A stretch of 64,000 bases of DNA from Lyngbya sp. HA4199-MV5 (GCA_019359375.1 JAHHHL010000031.1:1-64000); one strand, 5' to 3'; shown: positions 8,724-36,138, counted from the stretch's first letter. The notes: generated by a model from the sequence alone, not told the origin. A program made the numbers and translations.

Positions 8724-8867
8724 TATCAGATGACAATGAGCAAGTCGGGGGACGACAGTGAGAGCGGCGGTTAAAGTGCACCCGCTAATCGGCTCACTTT
8801 GAGCCTCTGGCGAACGAAGAAAAAGACACTCTGAGGTGGTTCCGCTCGCGAAAGGGAAACGCCAAGA

Positions 8868-18023: not shown

Positions 18024-20699
18024 ATGGCGAAGGAAGTCTCTCGAAATCGCGACAGCATTGTCTTATCTGAAGCGGGTCGAAAACGCCTCAAGCGATTGAT
18101 GGATCGGCATGCCTACTCGATCGCGGCTTTGGCACATGAAGCTGAGACCGGGGAGAACCAGGTTAAGAAGGCGTTGGATGGTAGAGCGATCGATCGAAAA
18201 ACCGTTTGGAAACTAGCAAAGGTATTCCACGCTGAGGCGGTTGATCTGATCGATGCAAGAGATTGGCAAGTATACTGCACTCAGCGGGCAAGAGCGTACC
18301 TGCAACTAACCACCTCACCCATTCTTTCTAGGGAAGGTGCTGCCCCTAACTGGCAAGAGTACCAGATTGATGTTGAGCTAGAGTTGCGACAACAGCAATT
18401 ACCTCTGAAGCGAACTAGCTATTCCCTGCAGGAAGGGAGTGACTTATTTACACTGTCCCCTGATGAAGTTATCCACACTGATTCAATCCCTGCTTTCCTA
18501 GAGCGCATCTTTAAAGCTGACAATTTACGTACTGCCCAACGCATTGCTGTGACAGGACCATTGGGTGCAGGAAAAACGAATTGCCTACAGCGGATGATTG
18601 CCTGGCTTTTATCTCATCCTCAGTACGGGATACCTATCTGGATTCCAGCAGCAGCATTGCAAGCTTCAACGACGGTAGAAGATTATTTACGAACCAACTG
18701 GTTAGCGGGAGAACGAGTATCTGGGCTTGACTGGGAGGAGTTTTTAATTGAATTAACGGAAGGACGCATCTGGCTTTTTCTGGATGCCGTAGACGAATGT
18801 GGGGGCAATGCGATGTCCAGCCTAGCAAGTCTGAAAGTTCAACTGACGAAGTGGTTAACCCATGCCCATCTTGTGATCTCGTGCCGCGGTACTGTTTGGG
18901 ATCTCGAATCTAATCCATTGCGACCTCAGTTTAACGTGTACTGCATCAAACCATTGCATTACGGTAATTCAGCGCAAACCGATCAAGTTCAAGAATTTAT
19001 CAACGTGCGATTTCGACACAATCCCAAGCAAGGAGTGCAGTTAAGACATCGCTTGGAACGCTCTGAGAATCGATCGCTTAAGAATTTAGTTCGCAATCCA
19101 TTTTGTCTGGAACTTCTATGCTATCTGTGGCAGATTTGGCAGCGAAGTCCGAACCGACTACGCTGGAATCGCTTACCGCAAACCCGCTTTGAGCTGTATG
19201 AGTGGTACGTCCATTACTTGGTTGATGTATGGCGCCCTCAATCTGGAAGCAGAGAACTACAATTCAGCCCAATCTTACTGGCGATTCAAGTGCTTGCCCT
19301 CCGTGCACTATTGGAGGAGCGATCGCCTTTTCGGATACGTCACGCCTTTATTTTGGAGGTATGGCAGTCTGAAGGATTTGATCCAGATTGGTTAGAACTT
19401 CTTAAGCAAAACGGTATCCTAAGTCTGATTGGACATGCTCAGGAAAATGCTGCAGAGGATGTTTACAGCTTCCTGCATCCGGTGTTCCAGAGCTATTTTG
19501 CTGCCAGAGCCGTTGAACGTCACCAAGTTCTGTTTGATCCCTGTGGTGAACCAGGAACTTATGTCGCACTAGAGTTGCACTTTTGGGAGGTGGTATTGCT
19601 CTACCTCGAACGCCCACTCTCAAGTTCAAGTATTCTAAGTTCAGATAAAGAAGCGCTGCTGCAAGCCTTGTCCGAATTTAACGATCAATTTAGTGGATTC
19701 TACACGTTTAGAGCACGGCTCCTTGCTGCCACTGGCATCAACTGCTATGAAAGATTCACTCAAAAAGAAAAGGTGGTTGATTCGATTGCGTGTTGGAGTT
19801 GTAGAATCCTTGACCCAAACCAAAGTGAGTTCTTAACTTTGTCACCTGGTTATATAGAAAAGTATGCAACTCAGGCGTTACTCGAAACAGATGCTGTTCA
19901 AGCTCTGGCTTCTCTCAAAAAATTATTGAAGAAGACACCTCAGCAGACGGTAGAAACTCACCTGAGAATTATTGATCGACTTCTACAAATTGAAGGAGGA
20001 AAACAGATTGCGTTTCGGGAAATCCGCTATTTATCACAGCAATCTCTGATGACTCAACTTCAATTACTACCAGTGCTGCACAAGTTTTTTCGCATCTATG
20101 AACCTGATGATACGGAGTCGATGAATCAGATTAAATCTGTGTTACTTTCGAATACGCAAGATGAATCCAATGTGGCAATCCTTCGCCTCCAAGCGACACT
20201 CTCGTTGAGAGAGATTGATTTCGAACACCCAGCAATCGCAGAAACTTTAGCGCAACTTAGATCAGCTTCTAATCAGGAGGTGGTTCAAGTTGCAAGGGTT
20301 CTCCATCAGTGGTTGGTAGATGGAAATCCAAGCGTACAGAATCTGCTGTATGGCGAAGACGGTTACTACCGTTATTACTCGTTAGAGGAAATTGATGTGT
20401 TACTTGCAGAAAGCAATCATCAACTACGTTCTCAGTCAATAATCGCTGCGGAAGTGCTGACCCAACTTGCAATGGCTATCAAGACGGACGGAAATTTTAG
20501 AGTTACGTTTCAAGGGGAACGCTTAATTCGACTTTTCAGTATCTTTAAACGGATTATCCGTAATTATAATGCGGCATCCGGGCAAGATGAAATCAGATTG
20601 ACTTCTTCGTTACTCACTTGCTTTGAGCTAATCAATATTTGCTCTGAACAGTTGCCGTACCCACAAGTGTTCTCTGCTTGGCTCACGGCTACCTCATAA
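18024..20699 (+). CDS. HTH-NACHT STAND NTPase with helical C-terminus
   Basis: 891 aa. Residues about 14-80 form a Cro/C1-like HTH (YSIAALAHEAETGENQVKKAL). The NACHT ATPase follows: Walker A VTGPLGAGKTNCL (about 175-187), Walker B IWLFLDAVDECGG (D254, D257, E258) and the sensor-like HLVISCRGT. Beyond about residue 480 are helical, HEAT-like repeats. This architecture is common in cyanobacteria. NACHT proteins in bacteria are STAND-type switches, several of them shown to be anti-phage; the N-terminal HTH rather than a toxic effector makes a regulator equally possible. Start supported by its own divergent position. Confidence 0.82.
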   Translation: MAKEVSRNRDSIVLSEAGRKRLKRLMDRHAYSIAALAHEAETGENQVKKALDGRAIDRKTVWKLAKVFHAEAVDLIDARDWQVYCTQRARAYLQLTTSPILSREGAAPNWQEYQIDVELELRQQQLPLKRTSYSLQEGSDLFTLSPDEVIHTDSIPAFLERIFKADNLRTAQRIAVTGPLGAGKTNCLQRMIAWLLSHPQYGIPIWIPAAALQASTTVEDYLRTNWLAGERVSGLDWEEFLIELTEGRIWLFLDAVDECGGNAMSSLASLKVQLTKWLTHAHLVISCRGTVWDLESNPLRPQFNVYCIKPLHYGNSAQTDQVQEFINVRFRHNPKQGVQLRHRLERSENRSLKNLVRNPFCLELLCYLWQIWQRSPNRLRWNRLPQTRFELYEWYVHYLVDVWRPQSGSRELQFSPILLAIQVLALRALLEERSPFRIRHAFILEVWQSEGFDPDWLELLKQNGILSLIGHAQENAAEDVYSFLHPVFQSYFAARAVERHQVLFDPCGEPGTYVALELHFWEVVLLYLERPLSSSSILSSDKEALLQALSEFNDQFSGFYTFRARLLAATGINCYERFTQKEKVVDSIACWSCRILDPNQSEFLTLSPGYIEKYATQALLETDAVQALASLKKLLKKTPQQTVETHLRIIDRLLQIEGGKQIAFREIRYLSQQSLMTQLQLLPVLHKFFRIYEPDDTESMNQIKSVLLSNTQDESNVAILRLQATLSLREIDFEHPAIAETLAQLRSASNQEVVQVARVLHQWLVDGNPSVQNLLYGEDGYYRYYSLEEIDVLLAESNHQLRSQSIIAAEVLTQLAMAIKTDGNFRVTFQGERLIRLFSIFKRIIRNYNAASGQDEIRLTSSLLTCFELINICSEQLPYPQVFSAWLTATS

Positions 20700-21396: not shown

Positions 21397-21419
21397 AAGC
21401 GGTTTACCGAACAAGCAGG

Positions 21420-21483
21420 GGCATTGTCAACTTAACCGGGACTGTTCAGAATTCAGTACAGTCCCGGTTAAGTTGACAATGCC
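21420..21483. mobile_element. 64-bp palindrome made of two IS-type ends (MITE or remnant)
   Basis: GGCATTGTCAACTTAACCGG and six more bases (21420-21445) are perfectly repeated in inverse at 21458-21483, with a 12-nt spacer centred on GAATTC. The outer 17 bases closely match the ends of the IS6-type element at 40866-41697 (GGCATTATCAACTTAAC). No flanking duplication is visible. The right arm carries TTGACA reading rightward and contains the start of the next small gene. Confidence 0.75.
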
Positions 21484-21721
21484 ATTGTTTGATATCAAAG
21501 TTCAGCAGGAAACTCGTCAGGAGGCTGTCCGAATGGCGTATCAACAGCAGCAACGAATTAAGCAGGAGGCATCCCAAGCAAAAATGATTACCCGAATGCA
21601 GCAGTTTTTAGCTTCTGGTGATCCCATTCTGGTTGCTGAGGCGTTGGCATGGGCAAAAGTAAATCCTGGCATTTTGAAAGTCAACCAACTTTCTCTTCTG
21701 CCCAAGCTCCAGACGGATTGA
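21479..21721 (+). CDS. Small unknown protein
   Basis: 80 aa from ATG 21479 (TTG 21473 also possible). Its first codons lie inside the IS-end palindrome, so the original start may have been lost and the present one supplied by the insertion. The sequence is Gln/Lys-rich at the N-terminus (QQETRQEAVRMAYQQQQRI) and ends LAWAKVNPGILKVNQ. No family recognised. It precedes the pPIWI-RE operon by 160 bp. Confidence 0.5.
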   Translation: MPLFDIKVQQETRQEAVRMAYQQQQRIKQEASQAKMITRMQQFLASGDPILVAEALAWAKVNPGILKVNQLSLLPKLQTD

Positions 21722-21882: not shown

Positions 21883-23007
21883 ATGCCAACCTTTCCTCCT
21901 CACCCTACGCAAGTTGCGACTCGCTTGGCAGTCGGAGTCGTGGAGTTGCAGAAGCAAATTGTGGCGGGAACCTCCTTGCCTGTGACCAGTCCGCAATCTC
22001 AATTTCGGGCTGGATTGGAGCAACTGTCGGTCTTATGCCTTGCACACAGCGTTAGACCGCCTGCTCACCATCAAGAAGCTGTTCAATGGCTGCATACCCC
22101 GATGGAACAGTGGTTGGGATTAGAATCCACGATGGCAACAGCGGGATTGAGTGGGGCGCTGTTGTTTCATGGCGTCCCAACAGAATATGCTTACGATTTG
22201 GCATTTCGAGTCGAGGGTGACAGCAACCTTGAGATTGACGACCTTCTATTCAAGGATATTTTGGAGTACTGCCAGCAGAATCGTTTGGAAGGTCAATACA
22301 CAAATGCTCGTCAGTTTTTAGTTGAACACTCGTGTCTACAGCAGGGCACTCATCTCATCAACAGTAACCTGGATTGGGATAAGCCAATCGCTGAACTCCT
22401 CTGTGCAATTTATGAGCGCATTCCGCTGAAAGCCAGAGTGACTGGAAGCGAAACTGAGATGGTTGCCCTATGCCCTCGCTGCGGCTGGACATTAGAGTGG
22501 TACGGTGATTACGCCTCATGCTATAGCGATCTCTGCGGACGTTTAGTAGAACGAATCCATCATCCCGATCGCTGGATTCCCTATCATCCCGAAATGGTTC
22601 GAGTGAATCGCGGGGTTCAGCAATATGTCGTCGCCCCAGAGCGGATGCTCCTGGTGTTGAAGTCAGCATTAGAACAGATGGGCGCGACCTGTGAACTTTG
22701 GGTTGCCGTTGACAGTTATGACCTCTGGGTTCAATTCCCTTCTGGTGTGCGCTGGGCGATCGACTTGAAGGACTACTCTAGTCCGACTCGCTTGGCTTCA
22801 GCGTTCAAGCCGTTCAAACGTTATCCCGAATGGGATGAATGCTTTTACGTCATTCCTGATTACCGTAAAGTTGGCAACTACAACGAGCAGCTACAGGCAA
22901 CCTGGAAAGCCAGATGCCAACGGGAGCCAGAGCTTCAGGACATCAAAATCTGCTACGTCAAGCAGATGCTCAAAAAAGCTGAACGTGTTGCTGGAGGTCG
23001 GGTATGA
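21883..23007 (+). CDS. pPIWI-RE system REase-like protein (Y domain, Zn-ribbon, PD-(D/E)xK)
   Basis: 374 aa. The first 180 residues are helical and match what is called the pPIWI_RE_Y region. A Zn-ribbon follows: C197-P-R-C200 and, about 17 residues later, CYSDLCG. The C-terminal third is a REase-fold nuclease: YDLWVQFPSG, then WAIDLKDYSS, where D-L-K at about 293-295 is the D/E-x-K motif. It overlaps the helicase gene by 4 bp (ATGA), the first gene of a three-gene island. In the model for these systems the nuclease cuts invading DNA held in an R-loop or similar guide complex; that function is predicted, not shown. A possible -10 (TACTAT) lies at 21854. Confidence 0.82.
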   Translation: MPTFPPHPTQVATRLAVGVVELQKQIVAGTSLPVTSPQSQFRAGLEQLSVLCLAHSVRPPAHHQEAVQWLHTPMEQWLGLESTMATAGLSGALLFHGVPTEYAYDLAFRVEGDSNLEIDDLLFKDILEYCQQNRLEGQYTNARQFLVEHSCLQQGTHLINSNLDWDKPIAELLCAIYERIPLKARVTGSETEMVALCPRCGWTLEWYGDYASCYSDLCGRLVERIHHPDRWIPYHPEMVRVNRGVQQYVVAPERMLLVLKSALEQMGATCELWVAVDSYDLWVQFPSGVRWAIDLKDYSSPTRLASAFKPFKRYPEWDECFYVIPDYRKVGNYNEQLQATWKARCQREPELQDIKICYVKQMLKKAERVAGGRV

Positions 23008-26000
23008 GGAATTGGCAGGATTGGCATAAACCCCTTGTCGAAGCACTCTATTCCCTGCTGGAAGATGGTTCCCTTGTCCGACTAGAGAAACGGGATTGTG
23101 CGCGTCTATTTGAAATTGAGATGCTGATTATGCTGCATGAGCGCATCAACAGCCCTCTCAGCCTCAAGGACACTTGGGCACTCACTACGGGTTACGTCAC
23201 ACCAGAAGTCGCAGAAAATGACCAGTTAAGGCAGCAAGTGGCGATCGCCCGCAATCGAGTTCGCTATCTCCGAACTAAAACCACATTCAACCGCCATTTA
23301 AATTGGTATGCTGAACTTCCTGCCACTATTCGCCTCTACGACGTTTCCCTGGAGTCCAGTACCTACTCTCGCCGCGCTATTCTGCATCATGTTCCTCAGC
23401 GCATTCAAGCGATCGAAGCGGCTCTTTCTACCTCAGCAGAACATACCCCCATCAAAGAGCAGGTTGCCAAAGCCGACACAGAATATGCGTTTTCAACCGA
23501 CACTGGGTATGAAACCATTCGGATTCCCGCAGAATTGATCAACGCCGCCAATACTCTGGCTTCTAAAACAACCCTTCAGCAAATTCCTAAACGGAATCAA
23601 CCCCGTCCCTCTATTATCATTCAGCGGTCAGAACTGCACCAAGCTGCGATCGAACTGAACGTGAAACTGCCAAAACGCGATTGGTTGCGATGGGTTGAGA
23701 ACTTCGAGTTAAGGCTGGTTGCGACCGAGCTTGTTCCTGCTGACTCATTTACGATTGATGGGCTATTTCATTTGCTGGGTCCGACCGGAGCCGGAAAAAG
23801 TACACTCATCTACCTGATTCTTTACCTACTCTGTCAGAAAAACTCCGACTTTCGAGTCACAGTGATTGCCAACACCGTAACCGATGCTTTGAATCTGGCA
23901 TCTGAATTAGAGCAAGCTGGAATTAAGGCGGCTCCAATCTTGGGGCGCGATCGCCAGTCGCACCGTTACCAATACGGCATGGCGCATCGAGACGAACTTG
24001 ATCCGGGGGTGTTGTTTAATCCGCAAGCACCGGAATTAGCCAATCCTGCTCTTCATTGGCTAACCGGAACCTGCATTCTTTCTGGCTTGGTTGAAGAGGG
24101 CATCACACCCGGTCAAGAACCTTGTCACAACCTCGTCTCGATCAAAACGGCGCGCAATCAGCGAAAACCCAGCAGTACCTATACCTGCCCGTTGATGCCC
24201 ATTTGCCCAGTGCATCAGGCAAATCGTGATTTGCTTCAGGCGCAAGTTTGGATTGCCACACCTGCTGCATTCCTCTTCACCGCCATGCCTTTGTCACTCT
24301 CAGGAACTCGCATACGAGCACTAGAAGCGACCTACTATTTCAGCGATCTCTTAATCATTGACGAGGTCGATCGCGTTCAGGTTTCGATCGAAGAACGGTT
24401 TGCACAAGCGACTGATCTAACTGGCAGCCAAAAATCTACGCTCGATACCCTTGAGATGGTTCTGACTGAACAGGAGTATCGAACCGGTAAAACTCGACTT
24501 AACGACAAGCGGCATCGAGAACTGAAAGTAACCGTTCGAGAAGCCAGCCGTCTGGCTGATTGGCTTCTCGGACTTTTATTTGACTACACCCACCTGCGAA
24601 GCTGGGCAGAAGCGCCACTCTACAACACACTGGTTTACGACAATTTAGTCGAAACAGTGAGGTCTCTTACGCCTGCGGAGGTTGACCCAACCCAGCTAGA
24701 GACCGCCCTAACTCAACTGAGGCAAAGCTTTGAGTCTTACTGTCGGCATTCCACTGGCGAACTGGATGCGATCGTTAGCAACGTCAAAAACACGGGAGAA
24801 CTCTTTTTCCATCAGCTTAGAGCCTGGCTCAACTCAGAACTTCCTTTTCCACTTGCTCACACTCCTGCTGCCCAAACGTTTCTAGAACGACTGGGGTTTG
24901 CAGTTGTGTTGAGTGCCCTGGAATATCAGGTGAATAACCTGCTGAAGCAGTGGTCAGGATCTGCACCAGAACTGCAAGAGGGAGTTAACTTCAGCATTCA
25001 CCCACCTGAGGAGTACGTTGACCTGGGAATTGAAACCCCGTTAGGCAATATTCTCGGCTATCAATTTGTGGATCAGACCGGCGAAGGAAGCCCCCGAGGA
25101 ATTCTACGCTACCTCAACTGTCATGGGTTAGGGCGCTATTTACTGCTGCGCTTCCCTTACCTTTATCTCAGCTTATGTGGCGATTACGGACCTCATATCC
25201 TGCTAACCAGTGCCACTTCCTGGTCTCCCGGTTCACCTCAGTTTCACGTTGCCGTACCACCTCATGCGGTCTTAATCCCTCCTTCCAACATAGAAGCGAT
25301 CGCCCATAGCCACTTCGAGTTTTTGCGAGTTCCTGGTCTGAGTGGGGATGGAATCACCGTTAGCGGAAACTTTGGACAATACCGTTATGACAATTTGATC
25401 AAACTGGTTCGCTACCTATCCAGCAGTACGGGGAGTAGTCGTTCCAGGCTGGAGCAAGAGCTTGACTACTGGCAAGCACAGGGTAATCGTCGCGGGATTC
25501 TCTTATTAACGGGAAGCTACTCAGAAGCTCGTTATGTTGCTGATTACCTCCAGTTCTCACATAAATGGAAAGACTTGGTTGATTGCATTGTCAGCGATCG
25601 CGAAACCGAAGAGGATGACTGGCTCTTACGGCGTAGCCTGGCTGAGGAATTTCCTGAACGTAACAAACCAATTCTAGTCACTCCACTGGGCAGCATCCAG
25701 CGAGGGTACAACATTTTAGATCCGCAAACTCAGACTGCGTTTCTAGGCACCGTCTTCTTTCTGGTTCGGCCTTATCCTCAACCCACTGACTTTGGCAGAC
25801 ATATTCGCGGCATCCACAAGTGGGTGACTGAAAACTTACTGCTGGATGCAAATGTCCTATCTACTCAATTAGGGAATAATGCCATTGATGCAATCACACA
25901 GCTTCGCAGTGAGAGCCATCGTCAATGGCGAAGACGACTACGTTCTTCAGCGCTAGGCTCTGCGGCAATGGAAACTGAGTTCTGGCATGAGTTGTGTTGG

Positions 26001-26252
26001 GATCAAATTGTGGTGATCGTCCAGGTACTCGGACGTTTAACGCGCGGTAATGTCCCTATTCGTGCATTTTTCTGTGACAGTGCTTTCCATCCTAAAGATG
26101 CCCGTCGCAGCCTGATTCAAGGGTGGACTGATATATTGGCAGACTACCTTGCTCCTGGCAGCACCAAACCTTTGGTCGAACAGCAGCTCGCACAGTTACT
26201 TTATTGGGCAGTCTACGATCGCCTGTTGGATCTTCAAAAACGGCTTACATAA
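23004..26252 (+). CDS. pPIWI-RE system DinG/XPD-like superfamily 2 helicase
   Basis: 1082 aa. An N-terminal region of about 240 residues corresponds to the Z domain of pPIWI-RE helicases. Walker A LLGPTGAGKSTL lies at about 255-266. Four cysteines, C357, C374, C395 and C401, sit between motif I and motif II as in the Fe-S cluster domain of XPD/DinG. Motif II is DEVD (about 452-455), motif III-like LLTSATSWSPG is near 735, and motif VI is QVLGRLTRGN (about 1006-1015). So it should be a 5'-3' DNA helicase. Translationally coupled to the nuclease gene upstream; the pPIWI-RE gene follows 68 bp later. Confidence 0.85.
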   Translation: MRNWQDWHKPLVEALYSLLEDGSLVRLEKRDCARLFEIEMLIMLHERINSPLSLKDTWALTTGYVTPEVAENDQLRQQVAIARNRVRYLRTKTTFNRHLNWYAELPATIRLYDVSLESSTYSRRAILHHVPQRIQAIEAALSTSAEHTPIKEQVAKADTEYAFSTDTGYETIRIPAELINAANTLASKTTLQQIPKRNQPRPSIIIQRSELHQAAIELNVKLPKRDWLRWVENFELRLVATELVPADSFTIDGLFHLLGPTGAGKSTLIYLILYLLCQKNSDFRVTVIANTVTDALNLASELEQAGIKAAPILGRDRQSHRYQYGMAHRDELDPGVLFNPQAPELANPALHWLTGTCILSGLVEEGITPGQEPCHNLVSIKTARNQRKPSSTYTCPLMPICPVHQANRDLLQAQVWIATPAAFLFTAMPLSLSGTRIRALEATYYFSDLLIIDEVDRVQVSIEERFAQATDLTGSQKSTLDTLEMVLTEQEYRTGKTRLNDKRHRELKVTVREASRLADWLLGLLFDYTHLRSWAEAPLYNTLVYDNLVETVRSLTPAEVDPTQLETALTQLRQSFESYCRHSTGELDAIVSNVKNTGELFFHQLRAWLNSELPFPLAHTPAAQTFLERLGFAVVLSALEYQVNNLLKQWSGSAPELQEGVNFSIHPPEEYVDLGIETPLGNILGYQFVDQTGEGSPRGILRYLNCHGLGRYLLLRFPYLYLSLCGDYGPHILLTSATSWSPGSPQFHVAVPPHAVLIPPSNIEAIAHSHFEFLRVPGLSGDGITVSGNFGQYRYDNLIKLVRYLSSSTGSSRSRLEQELDYWQAQGNRRGILLLTGSYSEARYVADYLQFSHKWKDLVDCIVSDRETEEDDWLLRRSLAEEFPERNKPILVTPLGSIQRGYNILDPQTQTAFLGTVFFLVRPYPQPTDFGRHIRGIHKWVTENLLLDANVLSTQLGNNAIDAITQLRSESHRQWRRRLRSSALGSAAMETEFWHELCWDQIVVIVQVLGRLTRGNVPIRAFFCDSAFHPKDARRSLIQGWTDILADYLAPGSTKPLVEQQLAQLLYWAVYDRLLDLQKRLT

Positions 26253-26320
26253 TTCCTTATCAGTAAAACGGAAAAATCGGCAACCACAATCAACCCCAGA
26301 GAAACAACTCAGGTGACATT

Positions 26321-29074
26321 ATGAACGCAGCCTCACCCACTGAAGAAATCCCATTACCCTTCGTAGATCGTCTCCAACCGCTGGGTTGGACGATCAACAA
26401 ATCGTTTGACTATAGTCAGTTGGGGAAGCTCTACACGCTCCAATTACCATCCGTATGGGTTGATCAACTGCGATCGCTCTCCGAGGTTGATCACACTCCT
26501 GCCGTTGTCAGTCTTTACTGCGCTCTTGGGGTTTGTGCCCCCAGTGTTGTTCACATCTTTCGTGGTTCCTTCTCCCCTAACCCAGCCAGGCGACCACCCT
26601 ACTGGCTGGTGGCACTAGATGATGTGGTTCCCGTACCTGAACTCTGGCGCATCATTCAGGTGTGGCTGCGACAAAATTACGGTGATCAGATTGCTCGCAC
26701 AGTCGCTACTCAAATGCAACCTGCTGTAGAGCAACTGGAATGGCGTGAGATTCGCTTGCAGGAAGAACCTGTTGAAATCCTCTCCGCTATTCTGCCTCAC
26801 TTGATTGCTCGTTGGCTTGTTCGTAATGGGTTTCAGCTAGGGCTGACCGACAAATTAGGACATTCAGAATATTGGAACCTGGTTGTCGCCTCTTCCCCGA
26901 TGGAAACAGAGGCAACGTTGGTTACCTGGCATCCAAATGACTTCAGCCATTCTGAATCCAGTCAACGCGCCAAGTACTCCTACTATTTACGATTCACCTT
27001 CGCTCCTGCAAACGGTAAAACGCCCACACTACTGTTATTCAAGGCAGGTAGACGACGCTATATGACGCGATCGCTGATTGACTCTGCTTCAGGTCCTTCG
27101 GCGACTCCTCGTGTTCTCCTTCCCAAAGGTCAAGATAGTAGTGTATTTTTGGCGGTTCGAGAACTCGAATGGCTTAGTTCGCCCACAGACCGAGAACGGG
27201 AAACTACCCTCGTGCGACTATCGCTTGCCCACCACGAGTCGTTGCTATGGAAAGGGCGAGTTAATCAGATTCTCACTGCTTTGTCGTCACAGGTGCAAAT
27301 TCCTGACCCTTGCGATTTCCTAAATTCTCCGATTGCTCATGCTCCCCGTTTATTGATGCTGCATAGCTCTCGCTTCGGTTCCTACCTGGTGAAAACAGGC
27401 ATTGAGGCAGCCGATCGGTATGAACTCTTTGAACGCCTTTCTGTCGCGATGCCATCCGGTATGGTGCCTGCTCCCTCGATTGATAAAGTCAATACTCAAT
27501 CAAAGAACAAAAAGCGGCTAAGGGGTGCTGATCAAATTCCAGGAGATCGAGGCATCTACAGGATTCAGCTTGCCTCATCCACAAATTCAGAGCTAGTTAC
27601 AGCGCTCCAGGAAATTTTAACTGCCTCCAAAGTGAAGGGGCACCTCAGCTTGCTTAGTGATCACGAGTGGGAGTTTATAAATCGTCTGGGTGAGCGAGTA
27701 TCAATTCAAATTGATAAACAGCCACTTCCCCGCGAACACATTGCAGCCCTTGATCTACAAGGAACCTACTCCAAGGCAAATATTGCTGCTGCAACTCAAA
27801 GTCGTGCCACCCGTATTGAAGCTGATTTACGTCGTGCTGACATGGGAAGCATAACGTGCCAGGGTGCGATCGTCGAATTGTTAGACTATCGCAAATTAGC
27901 ACGACGAATTCGTAGTACTGATCCCAAACCTAGTATTCGTTGGGGCTATGCCTACAACGGGCAGGTGCTTCAGTTCATCACGCCTACTGAACCCTTGATT
28001 GATGTTGAAGCATTTCGACCAACCGACCCAAATAACGAAAAGCAAAATAAGACTTACAGGCGCAAACAAAAACAATTAGAGAGTCAGCAGAAAAAAGAAC
28101 AAGGAAAATGCGTCAACAGTATTCTTGATTTGCTGCGACAGCTTAGCTTTCCGCTAGGTATTCCTTTCTACAACGGCTTCCATCACACCTTACTACCCAA
28201 TCAACTCGACATCTTTGGAATATACGTTATTCGCGTGAATGCTCGTAACCACGCTGAGTCAAAAGTTGTTATTCCCGTCATTGCCCACGTCCCAGCAGCA
28301 ACGTTTTGTAGTGAGGTCCGCGTCTTTCTACCTAGTGACAGCGGACCGCAGGAGATGAGCTACTACGACAGCATGAGTGCGATCGCGAGGCTAGAACGCC
28401 AACACTCGTTAGATTGGAATGATGATCAGATTCGCAATTTTGTAGACTGCGTGTTCCGAGATCTTGAGCTACAGCATCCGGCTCTAGTGTTATTCAACAA
28501 TCAGAACATTCAGAAAGATTTGCCGCATCTTGTTGAAATGCCGGATGACCCCACAAATAATTCTTGGCATCAGGGGCTACGTTTACCTGTCCAAAATCCA
28601 CAGTTGTTGAGGGTCGCACGACTGCGCTATTCGACCGATGGGTTGGTAGGGGATGTTTGTCCCACAGCCGGATTCAATCGTTTTTCGGGGCTGTATCACA
28701 ATTCTCAGTTCAGCGATGCCTATTTTTCGATTGGGCGATCGCCTCGATCTGCAATGCGTCCGGCAGGTGCTAGAGTGCGCGATCGCATTACAAAACCAGG
28801 ATGGAATCAATCGGCTTTAGAAATCAGCTGGTTGTGCTTGCAACCGGAGGATAAGCCAGAAGATTGGTCATTGGCAGTCCACCGCCTTCGAGAGTCCTCG
28901 CCATTCTTGAATTCTGAGATAGTCACCTCTCTACCTCAACCCCTGCATCCCCTTGAAAAGCTCAAAGACTACGTATCTCGCCTTGATTTTGAACGGTTGG
29001 AGGATGATGGCGAAATGTTACTGGAGGTGGAAGAGGACGATCATCAGGAAGGTGTCCAGTTGAATTTGTTTTAG
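26321..29074 (+). CDS. pPIWI-RE family Argonaute-like protein
   Basis: 917 aa. An N-terminal X-type domain and a central MID-like region are followed by a basic insert (about 570-590, TYRRKQKQLESQQKK) and a C-terminal RNase H/PIWI-type domain: ALVLFNNQNIQKDLP, the conserved Arg in LRVARLRYST (about 763) and the conserved Glu in SALEISWLCL (E833). These R and E residues give the family its name. The domain order and the two upstream partners define a pPIWI-RE three-gene locus. These proteins are predicted to bind nucleic-acid guides and target plasmids or phage; guide type and catalytic activity are not established. The C-terminus is strongly acidic. Confidence 0.82.
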   Translation: MNAASPTEEIPLPFVDRLQPLGWTINKSFDYSQLGKLYTLQLPSVWVDQLRSLSEVDHTPAVVSLYCALGVCAPSVVHIFRGSFSPNPARRPPYWLVALDDVVPVPELWRIIQVWLRQNYGDQIARTVATQMQPAVEQLEWREIRLQEEPVEILSAILPHLIARWLVRNGFQLGLTDKLGHSEYWNLVVASSPMETEATLVTWHPNDFSHSESSQRAKYSYYLRFTFAPANGKTPTLLLFKAGRRRYMTRSLIDSASGPSATPRVLLPKGQDSSVFLAVRELEWLSSPTDRERETTLVRLSLAHHESLLWKGRVNQILTALSSQVQIPDPCDFLNSPIAHAPRLLMLHSSRFGSYLVKTGIEAADRYELFERLSVAMPSGMVPAPSIDKVNTQSKNKKRLRGADQIPGDRGIYRIQLASSTNSELVTALQEILTASKVKGHLSLLSDHEWEFINRLGERVSIQIDKQPLPREHIAALDLQGTYSKANIAAATQSRATRIEADLRRADMGSITCQGAIVELLDYRKLARRIRSTDPKPSIRWGYAYNGQVLQFITPTEPLIDVEAFRPTDPNNEKQNKTYRRKQKQLESQQKKEQGKCVNSILDLLRQLSFPLGIPFYNGFHHTLLPNQLDIFGIYVIRVNARNHAESKVVIPVIAHVPAATFCSEVRVFLPSDSGPQEMSYYDSMSAIARLERQHSLDWNDDQIRNFVDCVFRDLELQHPALVLFNNQNIQKDLPHLVEMPDDPTNNSWHQGLRLPVQNPQLLRVARLRYSTDGLVGDVCPTAGFNRFSGLYHNSQFSDAYFSIGRSPRSAMRPAGARVRDRITKPGWNQSALEISWLCLQPEDKPEDWSLAVHRLRESSPFLNSEIVTSLPQPLHPLEKLKDYVSRLDFERLEDDGEMLLEVEEDDHQEGVQLNLF

Positions 29075-29175
29075 ATAGCATCGCTGTTTAAGCTAATTAC
29101 TCACCCTCTCCAAAAGATTGTATTAACGGATTGCCTCAACCAATAGGAACGGCCTTCATCCATGAACACAATACT

Positions 29176-31266
29176 ATGACACAAAGTAATACCGCACCGG
29201 GTTGTTGGCAATCTATCAAAACAAATTATCCAGAGGTTCATGCGGTCCTGCAACAAGTTGCCGAAGCTATCTACACACAAATAGAAGATGCTGTTCCTGC
29301 GGGTCAGGATCTTACAGTTCAAGTTGAGCAGGCAATTACTCTGGGGTTTTTAGAGAAACAAGTAGACAAGATTGCTTTTGTCGAGCCAGCTCTTCGAGCA
29401 GACTATTTAGTCCAATATGCCGTTAAGTTGTTGTTTTCGGCTTGGGATGACGTGAGCATTTTTTTAGATACTGTTGATCATCTTTACCGCTGTAGCGTTT
29501 TACTTAACTACGATCGCGCTCTTGGTGTTCGATCACTATGCACCTTGGCTCATGAGCATGGCAGAGATTTAGTCAGTCGTATTACTGAAGTCGCGACGCT
29601 GAGAAGTAATGAAGGTATCACCCACGAGCAATTCTGGCATCTATATGAGTTATTCTGCGCTGCACTGCCTAATCTTCAACCTGAACCGAGACATTTAGCC
29701 GATGCTCTAGAAGTAATCGCGAACGTCAATCCTGGTGCAGGAATGATTCAATATGAAATGCAAGGTCTATTGAAACAATCGCAAGCAACAGTTGAGGCTT
29801 TCTACCAAGAGTTTACAAGTCGCTCGAATCCGCTCTTTGTTGAATTTGTATTTACCACATTGCTGATTCTGAGTCAGTTTGATCTACAGACTGCTCATCA
29901 ACGAGCATCATTGCTAACTGATTCTGATGATTTCATAGAAGTTAAATTGGGAATCGCCGTATTAGGACGGCTTAACTATGGTGGTGTCAAACAATCAGAA
30001 TTATTGGTTGTAACACTGAGTTGTTTCAACACATTCCTGATGCAGCCGAATGTCGAAGTAGATTCTCTATTAACCAGAGCCTACGGCGATTTGTTAGATC
30101 AATCTGATGAAGCGATCGCTAAATTCGTTGAACTGTCATCTCGCTCAGATTTGGCCATTCGTCAGGAAGCAGCTCAAGTTCTTTGCTGTCGAGCAGAACA
30201 ATTTCATCAACAGAACTGGTATAAAGAAGCCTTACTTTCCCTTTTGCAAAAGCCACTTCCACATCCAGAACTGCTGAAGCAGATAGATTTTGCAGTCCGT
30301 CGATACGTTAGTACTGAACCTAATTTTGCAATCCAAGTAATTGAAGCCCTAGCACTAAATTGGGACTACGGCAATAGTGTCGATAATACATTGCCTGATG
30401 TGACTCAATACACACTCGCAGAATTATTCAACCATCGTTGTGATAATTTAGCTGCCGCACTAACTCAATGGTTTGCCTCAAAGATTCCCAGGTTACATCG
30501 TGCTGCATACGAAATTGAGCATTCTTTTACCTCACCTCCGTCCGCTAACCCTAATGAAAGTGGTGAAAGCAATCTGGAGCCACCGATTCTACTTAATAAA
30601 GCTGTTTTGGATTCTCTTGATGAACTTACTTTTCACCAAATGCTGTGCCACATTGCAGGATATGTTACAGGTGGAGTCTCTCTCACAGCTTTAATTCTGT
30701 CAGCCGTTCAGCGAGAGCCTCTTTCTCAAGCCATCGCCAATCAAATCGTAATGCTTCTCAGCGATTATGTCCTTTATGATTACCCCAGCAAAGCCAGAGC
30801 CTATTTAAACCAGCGTCTCACAGCAGATAATCTTCTGGAAGTTGAAAGTCAAATTATTCAAACTGCATTAAACCGATTTGATCGCTATCTTCAGGCTCGT
30901 CAATCGTTGCCTCCTTTGAAAGAACTACAAGCACCTCCCAATAGAATTTATGCCTACTACCAAGCGCAATGGAAACAGAACGCAGACATTGTAGAACAAG
31001 CGAAAGAGCGTTCAATCTTTCGGTCTATCTTTGGTGGACGGGAAATCCCAATCAAATATGGCAAAGCATCTGCTCACTTTGAAGATGCGACGCAAAGGAT
31101 TTCTGAACCTATGCGGTTTGCGCCCATGTCCTACGAATACGATGTTCCTCAAAGCGATGTGATTGATCCTGTTGGTCGTGCCTATCAACGTTGGCGGTGG
31201 AGGCTAGCAGGGTTTGAGCAAGGTACAAATAGTTCAGAGATAAATTCCGCAGAGCCAGAAGTATGA
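29176..31266 (+). CDS. Unknown helical-repeat protein downstream of pPIWI-RE
   Basis: 696 aa from ATG 29176; a TTG at 29131 would add 15 residues. Almost entirely alpha-helical, with HEAT/ARM-like repeats across residues 30-470 (for example LSSRSDLAIRQEAAQVLCCRA and HQRASLLTDSDDF). The last 100 residues (RSIFRSIFGGREIPIKYGKAS and MRFAPMSYEYDVPQSD) look like a distinct tail. I know no family. It starts about 100 bp after the pPIWI-RE gene on the same strand and overlaps the next gene by 4 bp (ATGA), so it forms a coupled pair with it and could belong to the same operon. Confidence 0.7.
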   Translation: MTQSNTAPGCWQSIKTNYPEVHAVLQQVAEAIYTQIEDAVPAGQDLTVQVEQAITLGFLEKQVDKIAFVEPALRADYLVQYAVKLLFSAWDDVSIFLDTVDHLYRCSVLLNYDRALGVRSLCTLAHEHGRDLVSRITEVATLRSNEGITHEQFWHLYELFCAALPNLQPEPRHLADALEVIANVNPGAGMIQYEMQGLLKQSQATVEAFYQEFTSRSNPLFVEFVFTTLLILSQFDLQTAHQRASLLTDSDDFIEVKLGIAVLGRLNYGGVKQSELLVVTLSCFNTFLMQPNVEVDSLLTRAYGDLLDQSDEAIAKFVELSSRSDLAIRQEAAQVLCCRAEQFHQQNWYKEALLSLLQKPLPHPELLKQIDFAVRRYVSTEPNFAIQVIEALALNWDYGNSVDNTLPDVTQYTLAELFNHRCDNLAAALTQWFASKIPRLHRAAYEIEHSFTSPPSANPNESGESNLEPPILLNKAVLDSLDELTFHQMLCHIAGYVTGGVSLTALILSAVQREPLSQAIANQIVMLLSDYVLYDYPSKARAYLNQRLTADNLLEVESQIIQTALNRFDRYLQARQSLPPLKELQAPPNRIYAYYQAQWKQNADIVEQAKERSIFRSIFGGREIPIKYGKASAHFEDATQRISEPMRFAPMSYEYDVPQSDVIDPVGRAYQRWRWRLAGFEQGTNSSEINSAEPEV

Positions 31267-32972
31267 AATTAGTCATTCGTGAGTATCTGAGCATGTTGAA
31301 GGAAGCGGGCGAACTCGATTCGCTACTCTTTGATCTACTCATGAATATGAAAATCATTCCCCTAAATCGTGCCGAAAGCGGAGGAAGGCAAGATGGTGTG
31401 GACATCCCTGCTATTGGAAACGACCCAGAGGATGGAAGGCGGAAGCTCTTTCTATTTACAGCAAAGTGTGGAGATATCACACGGCAGGAATGGGATGCGG
31501 CTCCAAATGGAATCAGAGCATCTTTAAATGAAATTTTAGAAGGCTACTTGCGGACTCGCGTTCGACCGGGACATGCAAAACTACCGAAGAAAATTGTTCT
31601 GGTGACAGGTGGAGCTTTGAAGCAAAATGTTGCTCAGAACTGGACTAACTACGTTCATGAACACACACAGATTCATTCTAAATATGGGGAAATTGAGTTT
31701 GAATTTTGGGGTGGAGAAGAGCTTGCACCTAAAATTGAAGACTATTTGCTCGATGAATACCTGTTCCCCGAATCTTCCCGCAAGAATTTGCGAAAGACGA
31801 TCGCTTTAGTTGACCAAAATGAAGATCAGCCGAAGTATTTTTATCAGCTAATTGACGAAACTCTACTTAGTGGTAATTTGCCAACTGATAAGAAGCCAGG
31901 TTCAGTGCAAAAGCGTCGGAAAGCTCTACGCCTTCTGCATCTCAGTTTGAGCATAATATTTCACTGGGGCGAGGAAGCCAATAACCTACGTCCTGCCTTT
32001 TTGAGTGCTGAATACATGGTGCTTCGTGCTTGGGATTGGCTACGGCGTAATAATTTGTTTGAGTGTAAGAAAACGATGGCAGGGTTTATCCAGCTATTCT
32101 TTACATATCTCACAGTTGGAGATCATTACGCTGGTAAACTCCAACCCTATTGCTACGTTCAGGATGGGTTGTTTGGTTACAACATGGCAGATGAGGTGGA
32201 ATATCCACTACGAACTTTCGAGACCATTGGGACTTTAGCAAGTATTGGGTTATCTTACTGGTACATCGCTCAAATCTTGGAAGGTGAAACACAGCAACGC
32301 TATTTTGACCAAGCTTCTGCGATCGCTCGAATGCTAGAGAATTTAATCAAAAGCAATCCATCTGCATGGACACCACTTTACGATAGCCACGCAATTGATA
32401 TTGCACTTGGCTTGCTTGCTTTAACCGCAGCAAACGACCAGGAGACAGCAATAGAGTGGGTTCACGGAATCTCAAGCCGGATCTTCTATGCTTACGATAG
32501 TTTAGGCAGGCATTTCCCAATTGCTTCAGACAGCCATGAAGAATTAATTGCACTGGAATTCGGAAAAGCCCCTCCCAAAGAGGCATTGACCAAACTTTCA
32601 ACACTTTTGCCCCTACTAGCGGATTGGTTTGCCATTTTGAAGCTTGATGAACAGTACCCGGATTTTTACGAATCTGTCGTTCATATCTTTTCTCATACCA
32701 ATCTTCAAATCTGGTTCCCAGACAATGAAACTGAAAATTATCTTTATTGCCAAAATGCTGGTTACGTGAGTGGGCTAACAGTTGACTCTATTCAGCTACC
32801 ACCAACTCTCGATGAACTTAAAACATTCATCATCAATCTACGTGAGCAAAAACAAGAATTTAGAAGCTTCAGTTGTTTTTCTAAGGGGTATCCTGCATTA
32901 GGGCTAGTTGCAAGTCGCCATTTTCGTACCCCTGTTATTCCTGCTTACTGGCAATACGATGTTAAGGAATAG
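31263..32972 (+). CDS. Mrr-like PD-(D/E)xK domain protein of unknown system
   Basis: 569 aa. The first 160 residues resemble Mrr-type restriction endonuclease domains: GGRQDGVDIPA (D44, D47), then LFLFTAKCGDI with K68, where Thr takes the usual Glu/Gln place; KKIVLVTGGALKQNVAQNW and FEFWGGEELAPKI follow as later strands. The remaining 400 residues are helical, with TPR/HEAT-like character. I know of no named family with this layout. Translationally coupled to the helical-repeat gene upstream and 50 bp from the convergent DUF1016 gene. Nuclease activity is inference from fold and motif. Confidence 0.68.
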   Translation: MKLVIREYLSMLKEAGELDSLLFDLLMNMKIIPLNRAESGGRQDGVDIPAIGNDPEDGRRKLFLFTAKCGDITRQEWDAAPNGIRASLNEILEGYLRTRVRPGHAKLPKKIVLVTGGALKQNVAQNWTNYVHEHTQIHSKYGEIEFEFWGGEELAPKIEDYLLDEYLFPESSRKNLRKTIALVDQNEDQPKYFYQLIDETLLSGNLPTDKKPGSVQKRRKALRLLHLSLSIIFHWGEEANNLRPAFLSAEYMVLRAWDWLRRNNLFECKKTMAGFIQLFFTYLTVGDHYAGKLQPYCYVQDGLFGYNMADEVEYPLRTFETIGTLASIGLSYWYIAQILEGETQQRYFDQASAIARMLENLIKSNPSAWTPLYDSHAIDIALGLLALTAANDQETAIEWVHGISSRIFYAYDSLGRHFPIASDSHEELIALEFGKAPPKEALTKLSTLLPLLADWFAILKLDEQYPDFYESVVHIFSHTNLQIWFPDNETENYLYCQNAGYVSGLTVDSIQLPPTLDELKTFIINLREQKQEFRSFSCFSKGYPALGLVASRHFRTPVIPAYWQYDVKE

Positions 32973-33021: not shown

Positions 33022-34089
33022 TTAGTCTGAGAAGGTGTCTTGATCCAACTCCTCAACTACAGCCGCCGCTGCCTCGATCTCATGCTGTAAGTCTTCAATG
33101 GAGGGAAGTTTCTCCTTAAATTCATTAGGTAGTGCAGCGGTGGTGCGGTAGGTAGAGACGCTGATCGGCTGACTCATGCCACGGAGGGCATACTCTACAA
33201 CGGATTTCTTCTTAGAACGACAAAGAATGATCCCGATCGTCGGGTTATCGTGCTGACGGCGCAGTTTCTCATCAATCACATTGACGTAGAAATTGATTTG
33301 CCCTGAATACTCAGGCTTAAAGTCTGTCGTCTTCAACTCGATCACGACGAAGCAACTGAGTCCAAGGTGGTAAAAGAGAAGATCAACGAAAAACTCATCC
33401 CCTTCGACCTCCAATCGGTATTGACTGCCTACAAAAGCAAACCCAACTCCCAGTTCAAGCAAAAATTTCTGCATTCGCCCAACCAGGGCACGCTCTAAGT
33501 CACGTTCCAAGGCCTTCTCGTGTAGCCCTAGAAATTCAAGGTTATACTCCGATTTCAGAAGGCTTTGAGCAAGATCAGATTGAGGTGCTGGGAGTACTTC
33601 TTGAAAATTAGTTAATGCACCACCTTGGCGATCGTACAGAGCCGTGTCAATCTGATGAATTAAAACATTACGACTCCAGCTATTCTCAATTGTCTTCTGC
33701 ATATACCAGAGGCGTTGCTCCGGGTCTTTCACCTTATCCAGGATTACGCAGTTATGCTTCCAGGGAATTTTTGCACCAAGTTGGTGCAAAATTACTTCGT
33801 CAGGATAAGCCTCCGCAAACGATCGCATATAGTTGAGATTTCGAGGAGAGAAGCCGGTCATTTCAGGAAACTCTATTTTGAGGTCACGGGCTAACCGATC
33901 AATTACCTTTGCTCCCCAGCCTTCCTCCTTCTGGCGTTGGAGAATTTCCCGCCCAATTTGCCAGTAGAGTAGCACTAACTCCTGATTGACTGCTAGCGCT
34001 GCTTTAATTTGGCTGGAGCGGATCCTCTCCTTTAAATGGCGAAAGAAATCATCGTAATTATCAGGAAACAGGGAAGATTGCTTGGGCAT
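33022..34089 (-). CDS. YhcG/DUF1016-family PDDEXK nuclease
   Basis: 355 aa from ATG 34089 (MPKQSSLF); an extended start at 34122 is unlikely. The N-terminal DUF1016 helical domain (YWQIGREILQRQKEEGWGAKVID, FSPRNLNYMRSF) is followed by the nuclease domain: GEDFFVDLLFYH-like EFFVDLLFYHLGL and FVVIELKTTDFKPEYSGQ, with D and E-x-K as catalytic residues. These proteins are common in defence islands, often beside type I restriction genes; none is present here. Transcribed away from parA, sharing a short divergent promoter region. Full length. Confidence 0.9.
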   Translation of the reverse strand: MPKQSSLFPDNYDDFFRHLKERIRSSQIKAALAVNQELVLLYWQIGREILQRQKEEGWGAKVIDRLARDLKIEFPEMTGFSPRNLNYMRSFAEAYPDEVILHQLGAKIPWKHNCVILDKVKDPEQRLWYMQKTIENSWSRNVLIHQIDTALYDRQGGALTNFQEVLPAPQSDLAQSLLKSEYNLEFLGLHEKALERDLERALVGRMQKFLLELGVGFAFVGSQYRLEVEGDEFFVDLLFYHLGLSCFVVIELKTTDFKPEYSGQINFYVNVIDEKLRRQHDNPTIGIILCRSKKKSVVEYALRGMSQPISVSTYRTTAALPNEFKEKLPSIEDLQHEIEAAAAVVEELDQDTFSD

Positions 34090-34124
34090 GACGGGAATAG
34101 AGATCCAGATTTTGCAAATCATCT

Positions 34125-34201: not shown

Positions 34202-35023
34202 ATGTCAAAACAACAACCACATCAAATTGTTGTAGGAATTCTTGCCAATGCAGGTGGAGTTGGAAAAACAACGCTAGCAGTCCATCTAGCCTACGACCTT
34301 TTTAAGCGAGGTTGCTCTGTAGCACTTATTGACCTTGATCCCCAGCGTGCTTTGGATGTGTTCTGTGGACTACCATCGGTAGAAGCTGAAAACAGTGTCG
34401 TCCGAATACTGTCAAAGGACTTTGATGGCAAGTGGCCGCTTGCTTCTGCTTGGGACACTACAAAGATTGAAGTTTGTCAGGGGCATCCAACTCTATCGCA
34501 GATTTCTGATGACTTAGTCATCCGTAGAAGGGGGGAATACACTTTGGTAGATCGGTTACATAATCACCCCCTTCCCCATGATGTTGTGATTTTAGATTGT
34601 CCTGCCACACTGGGGATGATCTGCGAAAACGCGATCGCAGCCAGCACAGGGCTACTCGTTCCGATTCAGCTTGAGATGAAGTCTGTATCGGGAGTCGCTG
34701 ATTTAGTACAATGGGCGATCGCCATCTCCGATGATCTCCAGCTTGATCCTCGTCCACCGATTCTTGGACTAGTTCCCAGCTTGTACGACAGCAATCGTGC
34801 CATTCATCGGCAATATCTACAGCAATTACCAGAAGTCGCTGAACAGTTAGGGATTAAGCTCTACCCTCACATTCGAGATTCGTCCGAGTTTAAGAATGCG
34901 AGTGCCAATGGATTGCCATTGCAAAAATATCGTTCGGCACATCCTGCAAATAAGGATTTTGAAGCACTCGCAAAAGATCTCTCCGCACTCGTTCGCAAAG
35001 GGCTTGTTCGTAAAGGAAAGTAA
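34202..35023 (+). CDS. parA: ParA-type partition ATPase
   Basis: 273 aa. Deviant Walker A ILANAGGVGKTTLAV (G18-T23), Walker A' region LIDLDPQRALDVF and Walker B VVILDCPATLG. Small size without an N-terminal HTH is the chromosome/type Ib-like form. It drives segregation of replicons with ParB and a parS site. ParB starts 2 bp after its stop. Its presence supports a plasmid or plasmid-derived region. Confidence 0.9.
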   Translation: MSKQQPHQIVVGILANAGGVGKTTLAVHLAYDLFKRGCSVALIDLDPQRALDVFCGLPSVEAENSVVRILSKDFDGKWPLASAWDTTKIEVCQGHPTLSQISDDLVIRRRGEYTLVDRLHNHPLPHDVVILDCPATLGMICENAIAASTGLLVPIQLEMKSVSGVADLVQWAIAISDDLQLDPRPPILGLVPSLYDSNRAIHRQYLQQLPEVAEQLGIKLYPHIRDSSEFKNASANGLPLQKYRSAHPANKDFEALAKDLSALVRKGLVRKGK

Positions 35024-35025
35024 TA

Positions 35026-36138
35026 ATGTCGCGAATTCCTGCTATCAATCAACGCTTTACAGGAGCCTATCAAGCAACCGAACAGGCTCAGCGAATTGCA
35101 GAACTCCAAGCTGAGGTAGAACAACTTCGAGCCGCTCAGTCTCCCGATTTAGAAGCGCAGTTAGAAGTTCTGCGCGAGCAACTGAAGGCTCAATCTGGGG
35201 AGCTTGCAGTAGAACTAGAGCTAATTTACCCAAACCCACATCAGCCCCGACAAACCATTACATCTGAAAGTATTCAGACGATCGCTCGAAGTCTAGAAAA
35301 GGACGGACAAATCACACCATTGATTGTGATTCCACAGGGCGAGCAATATCTGCTTTGGGACGGACAACGTCGTTGGGAAGCTGCCAAATCGCTGGGCTGG
35401 AAAACTCTGCAAGCGGTAACCGCCCCAATGCCTAAGGATTTGCATCGGAAGGCACTGCTAACGTTTATTCATCACGAGGATCTCAATCCACTGGATAAGG
35501 CAGAAGCGATCGTCAAGGAGGTTGCAGATTCAACTGGCGTTACAGCCGAGGAAATTTCAACGGTACTGTCTACTGTGCTTCGCCGTTTAGAGCGTGGACA
35601 ACAGATCAACCAACTCACTTCCTTGATAGCTGTTACTCCCGAAGAGCAACAAAAGGGACTACAACAGTTGGACATCAGTGAAACTGAGACAGCACTTCTA
35701 CTCTCTTTGCTTGATTTAGGTCTGAATCCAGCCTCGGTGAAGGCAAATCTACTTTCAATGCTGGCATTACCCCCTGACCTGAAGCAAGCCATTCAAGAGC
35801 AGGGGCTGAAAGGTGCTCATGCTTTGGCGTTAGCTAGCCTATCAGATAAAACTTTGAAGATTGCAGAACGTCAGGCGACCAAAGAGCGTCTTGCTGCGAC
35901 TCAAGAGGTGATTGAGCAGGATTTGACCGTTGCGAAAACTCGTGAGCTAGTTGCTCAAGTTAAAGCAAAGTATTTAAATCACAAACCCGTTGAATCAAAA
36001 GAAGTTACGGTCGCTGCAAAGGGACTTGAAAAACTATCACCTGGCATTATGAAAACTACAAACCAGGAACAACTTGTAGAACTGCGACATATCCTTCAGC
36101 AAAAACTTGCTGAAATTGAGGCAATCCTAGCAGAGTAG
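35026..36138 (+). CDS. parB: ParB-type partition protein
   Basis: 370 aa. A coiled N-terminus (about 20-60) is followed by the ParB/Srx domain: NPHQPR (70-75), IARSLEKDGQITPLIV and the box II GQRRWEAA (113-120), then HEDLNPLDKAEAI and a HTH-like region (about 160-200). The C-terminus (QLVELRHILQQKLAEIEAI) is a likely dimerisation helix. The usual GERR Glu is Gln here. Immediately follows parA. A parS site was not identified with certainty. Confidence 0.88.
   Translation: MSRIPAINQRFTGAYQATEQAQRIAELQAEVEQLRAAQSPDLEAQLEVLREQLKAQSGELAVELELIYPNPHQPRQTITSESIQTIARSLEKDGQITPLIVIPQGEQYLLWDGQRRWEAAKSLGWKTLQAVTAPMPKDLHRKALLTFIHHEDLNPLDKAEAIVKEVADSTGVTAEEISTVLSTVLRRLERGQQINQLTSLIAVTPEEQQKGLQQLDISETETALLLSLLDLGLNPASVKANLLSMLALPPDLKQAIQEQGLKGAHALALASLSDKTLKIAERQATKERLAATQEVIEQDLTVAKTRELVAQVKAKYLNHKPVESKEVTVAAKGLEKLSPGIMKTTNQEQLVELRHILQQKLAEIEAILAE

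Follow-up and report, generated by a model that had tools for sequence, protein, structure and literature searches.

A complete three-gene pPIWI-RE locus, encoding a restriction endonuclease-like protein (REase), a DinG-type helicase and a PIWI protein, is present in the genome of the cyanobacterium Lyngbya sp. HA4199-MV5, at positions 21883–29074 of the 64,000-nucleotide stretch of DNA analyzed here as a whole (below, the window). The three-gene family is already known; the locus is a further copy of it, and its novelty lies in the details. Its family membership, the Argonaute and REase folds of the predicted protein models, and the states of the conserved residues are established. The three proteins probably act as a guide-directed restriction machine for DNA, of the pPIWI-RE type, in which the PIWI protein does not cut, the helicase is of the DinG type and the REase cuts.

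The three genes, and all features within them described below, lie on the plus strand. The first gene (21883–23007, 374 aa) encodes PprRE, comprising a Y domain, a zinc ribbon and an REase domain; the second (23004–26252, 1082 aa) encodes PprDinG, a Z domain followed by a DinG-type SF2 helicase; the third (26321–29074, 917 aa) encodes PprPIWI with X, MID, and RNase H-like domains. The stop codon of the first gene and the start codon of the second overlap in an ATGA at 23004–23007, whereas genes two and three are separated by a 68-nt spacer. All pPIWI_RE Pfam profiles were matched above their gathering scores, i.e., pPIWI_RE_REase (1.6e-25) and pPIWI_RE_Y (3.5e-12) by the first gene, pPIWI_RE_Z (2.1e-18) by the second, and pPIWI_RE_X (1.9e-38), MID_pPIWI_RE (2.6e-9), and RNaseH_pPIWI_RE (7.7e-30) by the third. 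PADLOC called the genes as PprRE (1.7e-24), PprDinG (1.7e-139), and PprPIWI (8.1e-64). E-values this small, in genes arranged as expected for the family, allow chance to be dismissed. A previous reading of this DNA by sequence alone (below, the sequence-only reading) had proposed a complete locus with exactly these three frames in one direction, the first two coupled by ATGA. This proposal is borne out by the profile matches, the gene order characteristic of the family, and the RNase H-like, Argonaute-type C-terminal fold predicted for 26321–29074.

For comparison, a profile built from proteobacterial DinG proteins was used to collect 54 loci from GTDB genomes, and further loci were added from cyanobacterial genomes and plasmids; stand-alone PIWI-RE genes lie outside the sampling of this DinG-seeded set. 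The order REase-DinG-PIWI on one strand was observed in all 51 GTDB loci that were not cut by a contig end, suggesting that the three genes work together. A search for stand-alone, active PIWI-RE genes in Gammaproteobacteria yielded none beyond the seed genome. Within the comparison set, the window locus forms a deep branch, its best DinG identity being about 30%.

The PIWI protein consists of domain X (residues 34–401; 26420–27523), the MID domain (residues 487–608; 27779–28144), and the RNase H-like PIWI domain (residues 632–886; 28214–28978). Its predicted model (pLDDT 65.7, pTM 0.73) matches Kurthia Argonaute in Foldseek with an E-value of 8e-12, with Argonautes throughout the matches listed, while the best VIA match is the RNA-guided Argonaute of Marinitoga (Z 13.8, rmsd 5.4, 476 residues); all top PDB matches are Argonautes. 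In Argonautes, the first RNase H aspartate, on strand 1, sits in a G-x-D-V motif. According to the family alignment, both catalytic aspartates are absent from the window protein, their positions being occupied by Tyr635 and Asn726. In the alignment of 73 PIWI proteins from which the residue counts were derived, the first aspartate is missing from 71 and kept in two, while 65 of 72 have an acidic residue (Asp or Glu) at the second position, on strand 4. Because both aspartates are gone, the window PIWI is not expected to cut. The two proteins with Asp at the first position, from loci L026 and L029, have Glu at the second and are candidate cutting members of the family, judging from these residues. 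The family arginine (R767) is conserved in 70 of 72 PIWI proteins; at the position of the family glutamate (E834), 57 of 70 have Glu and nine have Asp. The sequence-only reading was right that both are present, its number for the glutamate, 833, being off by one. Residues K536, R540, Q551, and Lys/Arg596 (K596 in the window protein) of the MID domain are likewise conserved, and may contact the 5′-end of a guide.

In about 20 proteobacterial or planctomycete loci, the third gene encodes a giant pPIWI-RE protein of 3035–3364 aa (L063, L065–L067, L069, L071, L073–L078, L080, L082–L086, L089, and L092). Such a protein is also encoded on plasmid L038, from position 8835. Together, they form a single clade in the DinG tree. 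The giants start with a pPIWI-RE part of ∼910 aa, followed by a region of about 1,500 aa of unknown nature, an AAA/STAND-type ATPase domain near residues 2417–2590 (AAA_22, ATPase_2; Walker A GGRRLGK), and a C-terminal part. The portion of the 2013 description of the family that was available to us (Burroughs et al., 2013; PMC3702460) makes no mention of them.

The helicase retains its motifs. Following domain Z (residues 29–183; 23088–23552), these are the Walker A motif (G259–K265; 23778–23801), found in 73/73 proteins, the DEVD motif II (24360–24371), whose D453 and E454 are conserved in 74/74, and motif VI, QxxGRxxR (Q1007, R1011, R1014; 26022–26045). The four Fe-S-type cysteines 357, 374, 395, and 401 (24072–24206), already pointed out in the sequence-only reading, proved invariant in the 73 relatives with residues at these positions.

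The REase protein starts with domain Y (residues 12–152; 21916–22338), in which Y139 and R143 are conserved in 72 of 73 proteins. It is followed by a zinc ribbon (22471–22536) formed by C197 (73/73), C200 (68/73), C213 (read from the sequence), and C218 (70/73), and by the PD-(D/E)xK nuclease core (residues 258–372; 22654–22998), whose D277, D280, D294, and K296 are kept in all 73 REases. In the predicted model (pLDDT 85.6), the core has the alpha-beta-beta-beta-alpha-beta order of elements of PD-(D/E)xK nucleases. Foldseek produced no significant match for this model, the best being FokI with an E-value of 0.07. The VIA comparison returned Upx (8.7), Cdn1, Hjc-type resolvases, and DdmD with Z of 6 to 9, weak matches that can reflect a common arrangement.

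Because the window PIWI lacks both aspartates, we infer that it recognizes the target and recruits the other proteins, while the REase cuts. The PIWI protein would hold a small guide strand in the MID pocket, paired with the invading nucleic acid, and would serve in recognition and recruitment. Target binding would then recruit the DinG-type helicase, which would open the DNA or travel along it, and the DNA would be cut by the PD-(D/E)xK REase. The guide type, the order of these steps, and the defense role are our inferences. The patchy spread of the locus, its location on plasmids or other mobile DNA, and the Olokun system next door fit a defense gene. Near the locus, we found no guide-producing gene, array, Rfam family, tRNA, or meaningful repeats, and the literature searched contained no report of a three-gene pPIWI-RE locus assayed for restriction of phages or plasmids. 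The sequence-only reading had considered the guide, target, and mechanism of the family largely unproven. This holds for defense, which is still a prediction; on the other hand, one family member, PsPIWI-RE from Pseudomonas stutzeri, was assayed in 2022 and is a nuclease that acts on DNA with RNA guides and on RNA with DNA guides (PMC10991935).

The gene of PsPIWI-RE overlaps the upstream dinG and is also accompanied by a restriction enzyme gene (PMC10991935), and in this it resembles the window locus. Cutting by PsPIWI-RE requires D525 and D610, while the family arginine and glutamate are dispensable (PMC10991935). At the positions equivalent by the family alignment, Tyr and Asn are found in the window protein; since PsPIWI-RE cuts and the window PIWI is not expected to do so, the biochemistry of the former carries over only partly. 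Compared to the pPIWI-RE family as defined by PADLOC (PprRE/PprDinG/PprPIWI) and in the original description (PMC3702460), the window locus shares all domains, the gene order, the coupling, and the conserved Arg and Glu, but differs in lacking both RNase H aspartates, in the substitution of Leu for the REase helix Glu, and in its deep branching.

The proposed scheme is akin to the anti-plasmid systems DdmDE and ApsAB, which likewise combine an Argonaute-like protein without its own cutting activity (a predicted property in the window), an SF2 helicase, and a PD-(D/E)xK nuclease. DdmDE uses DNA guides and has a fused helicase-nuclease (PMC12409362), and ApsA has a comparable series of motifs (PMC11096173). 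In both systems, the helicase and the nuclease form one polypeptide, whereas in the window they are separate chains encoded by two genes (23004–26252 and 21883–23007), and the window helicase, unlike DdmDE and ApsAB, has Fe-S-type cysteines. The REase model aligns with the C-terminus of DdmD with Z 7.3 and rmsd 5.3 over 185 residues, a score tied with other PD-(D/E)xK chains. The DdmD alignments cover model residues 120–374 with about 170–190 residues aligned, compared to about 100 for most other matches, and we treat this likeness as a lead. A sequence-profile comparison of the REase with the DdmD C-terminus gave no match; the best 60 PDB matches of the DinG profile were either helicase segments of reverse gyrase or other proteins with Walker motifs, with no DdmD; and a search for an ApsA homolog by its motif VI returned unrelated frames. 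A tentative suggestion, which we consider possible rather than probable, is that the three pPIWI-RE genes are related to DdmDE/ApsAB as a split-gene version with a separate DinG and a separate DdmD-like nuclease, directed mainly against plasmids, the PIWI protein of one lineage having been extended to ∼3,100 residues with a STAND-type ATPase.

A considerably less likely explanation dispenses with a loaded guide: the PIWI protein would be a sensor recognizing RNA-DNA hybrids in transcribed or replicating invaders, upon which DinG and the REase would act. This is the published model, which describes pPIWI-RE as a predicted RNA-dependent, R-loop-directed restriction system (Burroughs, Iyer and Aravind, 2013; PMC3702460), and it agrees with the action of DinG-type helicases on R-loops and with the activity of PsPIWI-RE, which is limited to mixed RNA/DNA duplexes (PMC10991935). 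However, PsPIWI-RE takes added guides (PMC10991935), and the MID residues that are candidates for binding the guide 5′-end are conserved, both counting against this explanation.

The state of the REase bears on another possibility, that the locus is losing its activity, with a dead PIWI and a nuclease impaired by the loss of a helix glutamate. At helix position 256, just before the nuclease core, Glu is found in 72 of 73 REases, and Leu256 of the window protein is the sole exception. If the VIA ranges are read without gaps, this position is opposite the catalytic Glu of Hjc-type resolvases, and Leu256 may possibly reduce or even abolish the nuclease activity. The statement of the sequence-only reading that all three proteins look intact applies to the reading frames; it does not apply to the PIWI aspartates and the helix Glu. 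On the other hand, the three long frames are uninterrupted, and E253 is located one helical turn from position 256. Moreover, deviations from conserved columns are about as frequent in the window proteins as in those of other deep lineages, e.g., L028, L029, and L035, so that decay is not the obvious reading, and we consider it improbable.

The distribution of the locus is patchy. In the same order, the REase is present in one of 42 genomes, that of Lyngbya sp. HA4199-MV5, and the PIWI RNase H domain was detected in 12 of 386 cyanobacterial genomes. Scanning genome contigs with the window PIWI as a single protein retrieved no relatives, the protein being too divergent, and tblastn of the same protein against plasmids and phages found nothing, whereas the DinG query produced matches on 23 plasmid records, of which many are cyanobacterial. 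The same genome contains a second, distant, complete pPIWI-RE locus (L003:6000–12941, contig G000:C53), whose proteins are 20–28% identical to those of the window locus. Its REase has the helix Glu, and its PIWI has the second RNase H Asp. It adjoins a ParA gene and another neighbor, apparently encoding a Tn3-family transposase. The DinG tree places this second locus not with the window locus but with a plasmid locus of Calothrix PCC 7716 (support 1.0), a strain that also has two pPIWI-RE loci, on two plasmids.

This distribution is hard to reconcile with a housekeeping role, be it in terminating replication or in separating chromosomes, in place of defense. Such a role would account for the increased ciprofloxacin sensitivity of P. 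stutzeri upon deletion of piwi-re, accompanied by a cell-division phenotype (PMC10991935), and the ciprofloxacin result also counts against the defense model. However, the absence from 41 other genomes of the order, the small number of positive cyanobacterial genomes, the occurrence on plasmids, and the two distant copies in one genome make it very unlikely.

Directly downstream of the PIWI gene, the Olokun proteins OloA and OloB are encoded at 29131–32972 on the plus strand (PADLOC, 9.6e-74 and 1.7e-160). A genus-mate has OloAB with 79% DNA identity over window positions 29168–32972, near a ParA gene and preceded by a different gene in place of pPIWI-RE. The product of this gene presumably is a GmrSD/DUF262 protein. 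Since the genus-mate has the same OloAB without pPIWI-RE, Olokun is a separate, independently moving cassette and was ruled out as a pPIWI-RE partner. A five-gene composite in which pPIWI-RE and OloA/OloB act jointly is scarcely credible despite the common strand, the distance of 56 nt, and the strong matches, as the match to the genus-mate ends at the cassette edge and the examined flanks of other pPIWI-RE loci contain no Olokun.

Farther downstream, a YhcG-type nuclease (33022–34122) is followed by ParA/ParB (34202–36138), and recombinases and transposases are found around. The surroundings of the locus, on an 80-kb contig, look like a defense cluster carried by DNA that is plasmid-like or mobile in some other way. 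A protein of 891 aa with an HTH and a NACHT/STAND NTPase domain, encoded at 18024–20699, 1.2 kb upstream of the locus, is possibly a further defense gene. A near-perfect palindrome of 80 bp (21412–21491; 40-nt arms, 88%) has a PadR-type regulator on one side and a small ORF on the other, and half-copies of about 41–48 nt occur in the genomes of some relatives. At the beginning of the window, a DarT-like ssDNA ADP-ribosyltransferase (463–1089; 1.9e-64) precedes a gene whose product resembles a macro-domain DarG antitoxin (1112–2152), the two likely forming a DarTG pair.

Among prokaryotic Argonautes, the pPIWI-RE family makes up one of the main branches, whose cellular role is largely a prediction. 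Two distant complete loci in one genome make a comparison possible within a single host. The residue analysis predicts that the cutting is done by the REase, not the PIWI protein, in nearly all three-gene loci sampled here. If the resemblance to DdmD is true, pPIWI-RE could be added to the systems that share an already understood mechanism.
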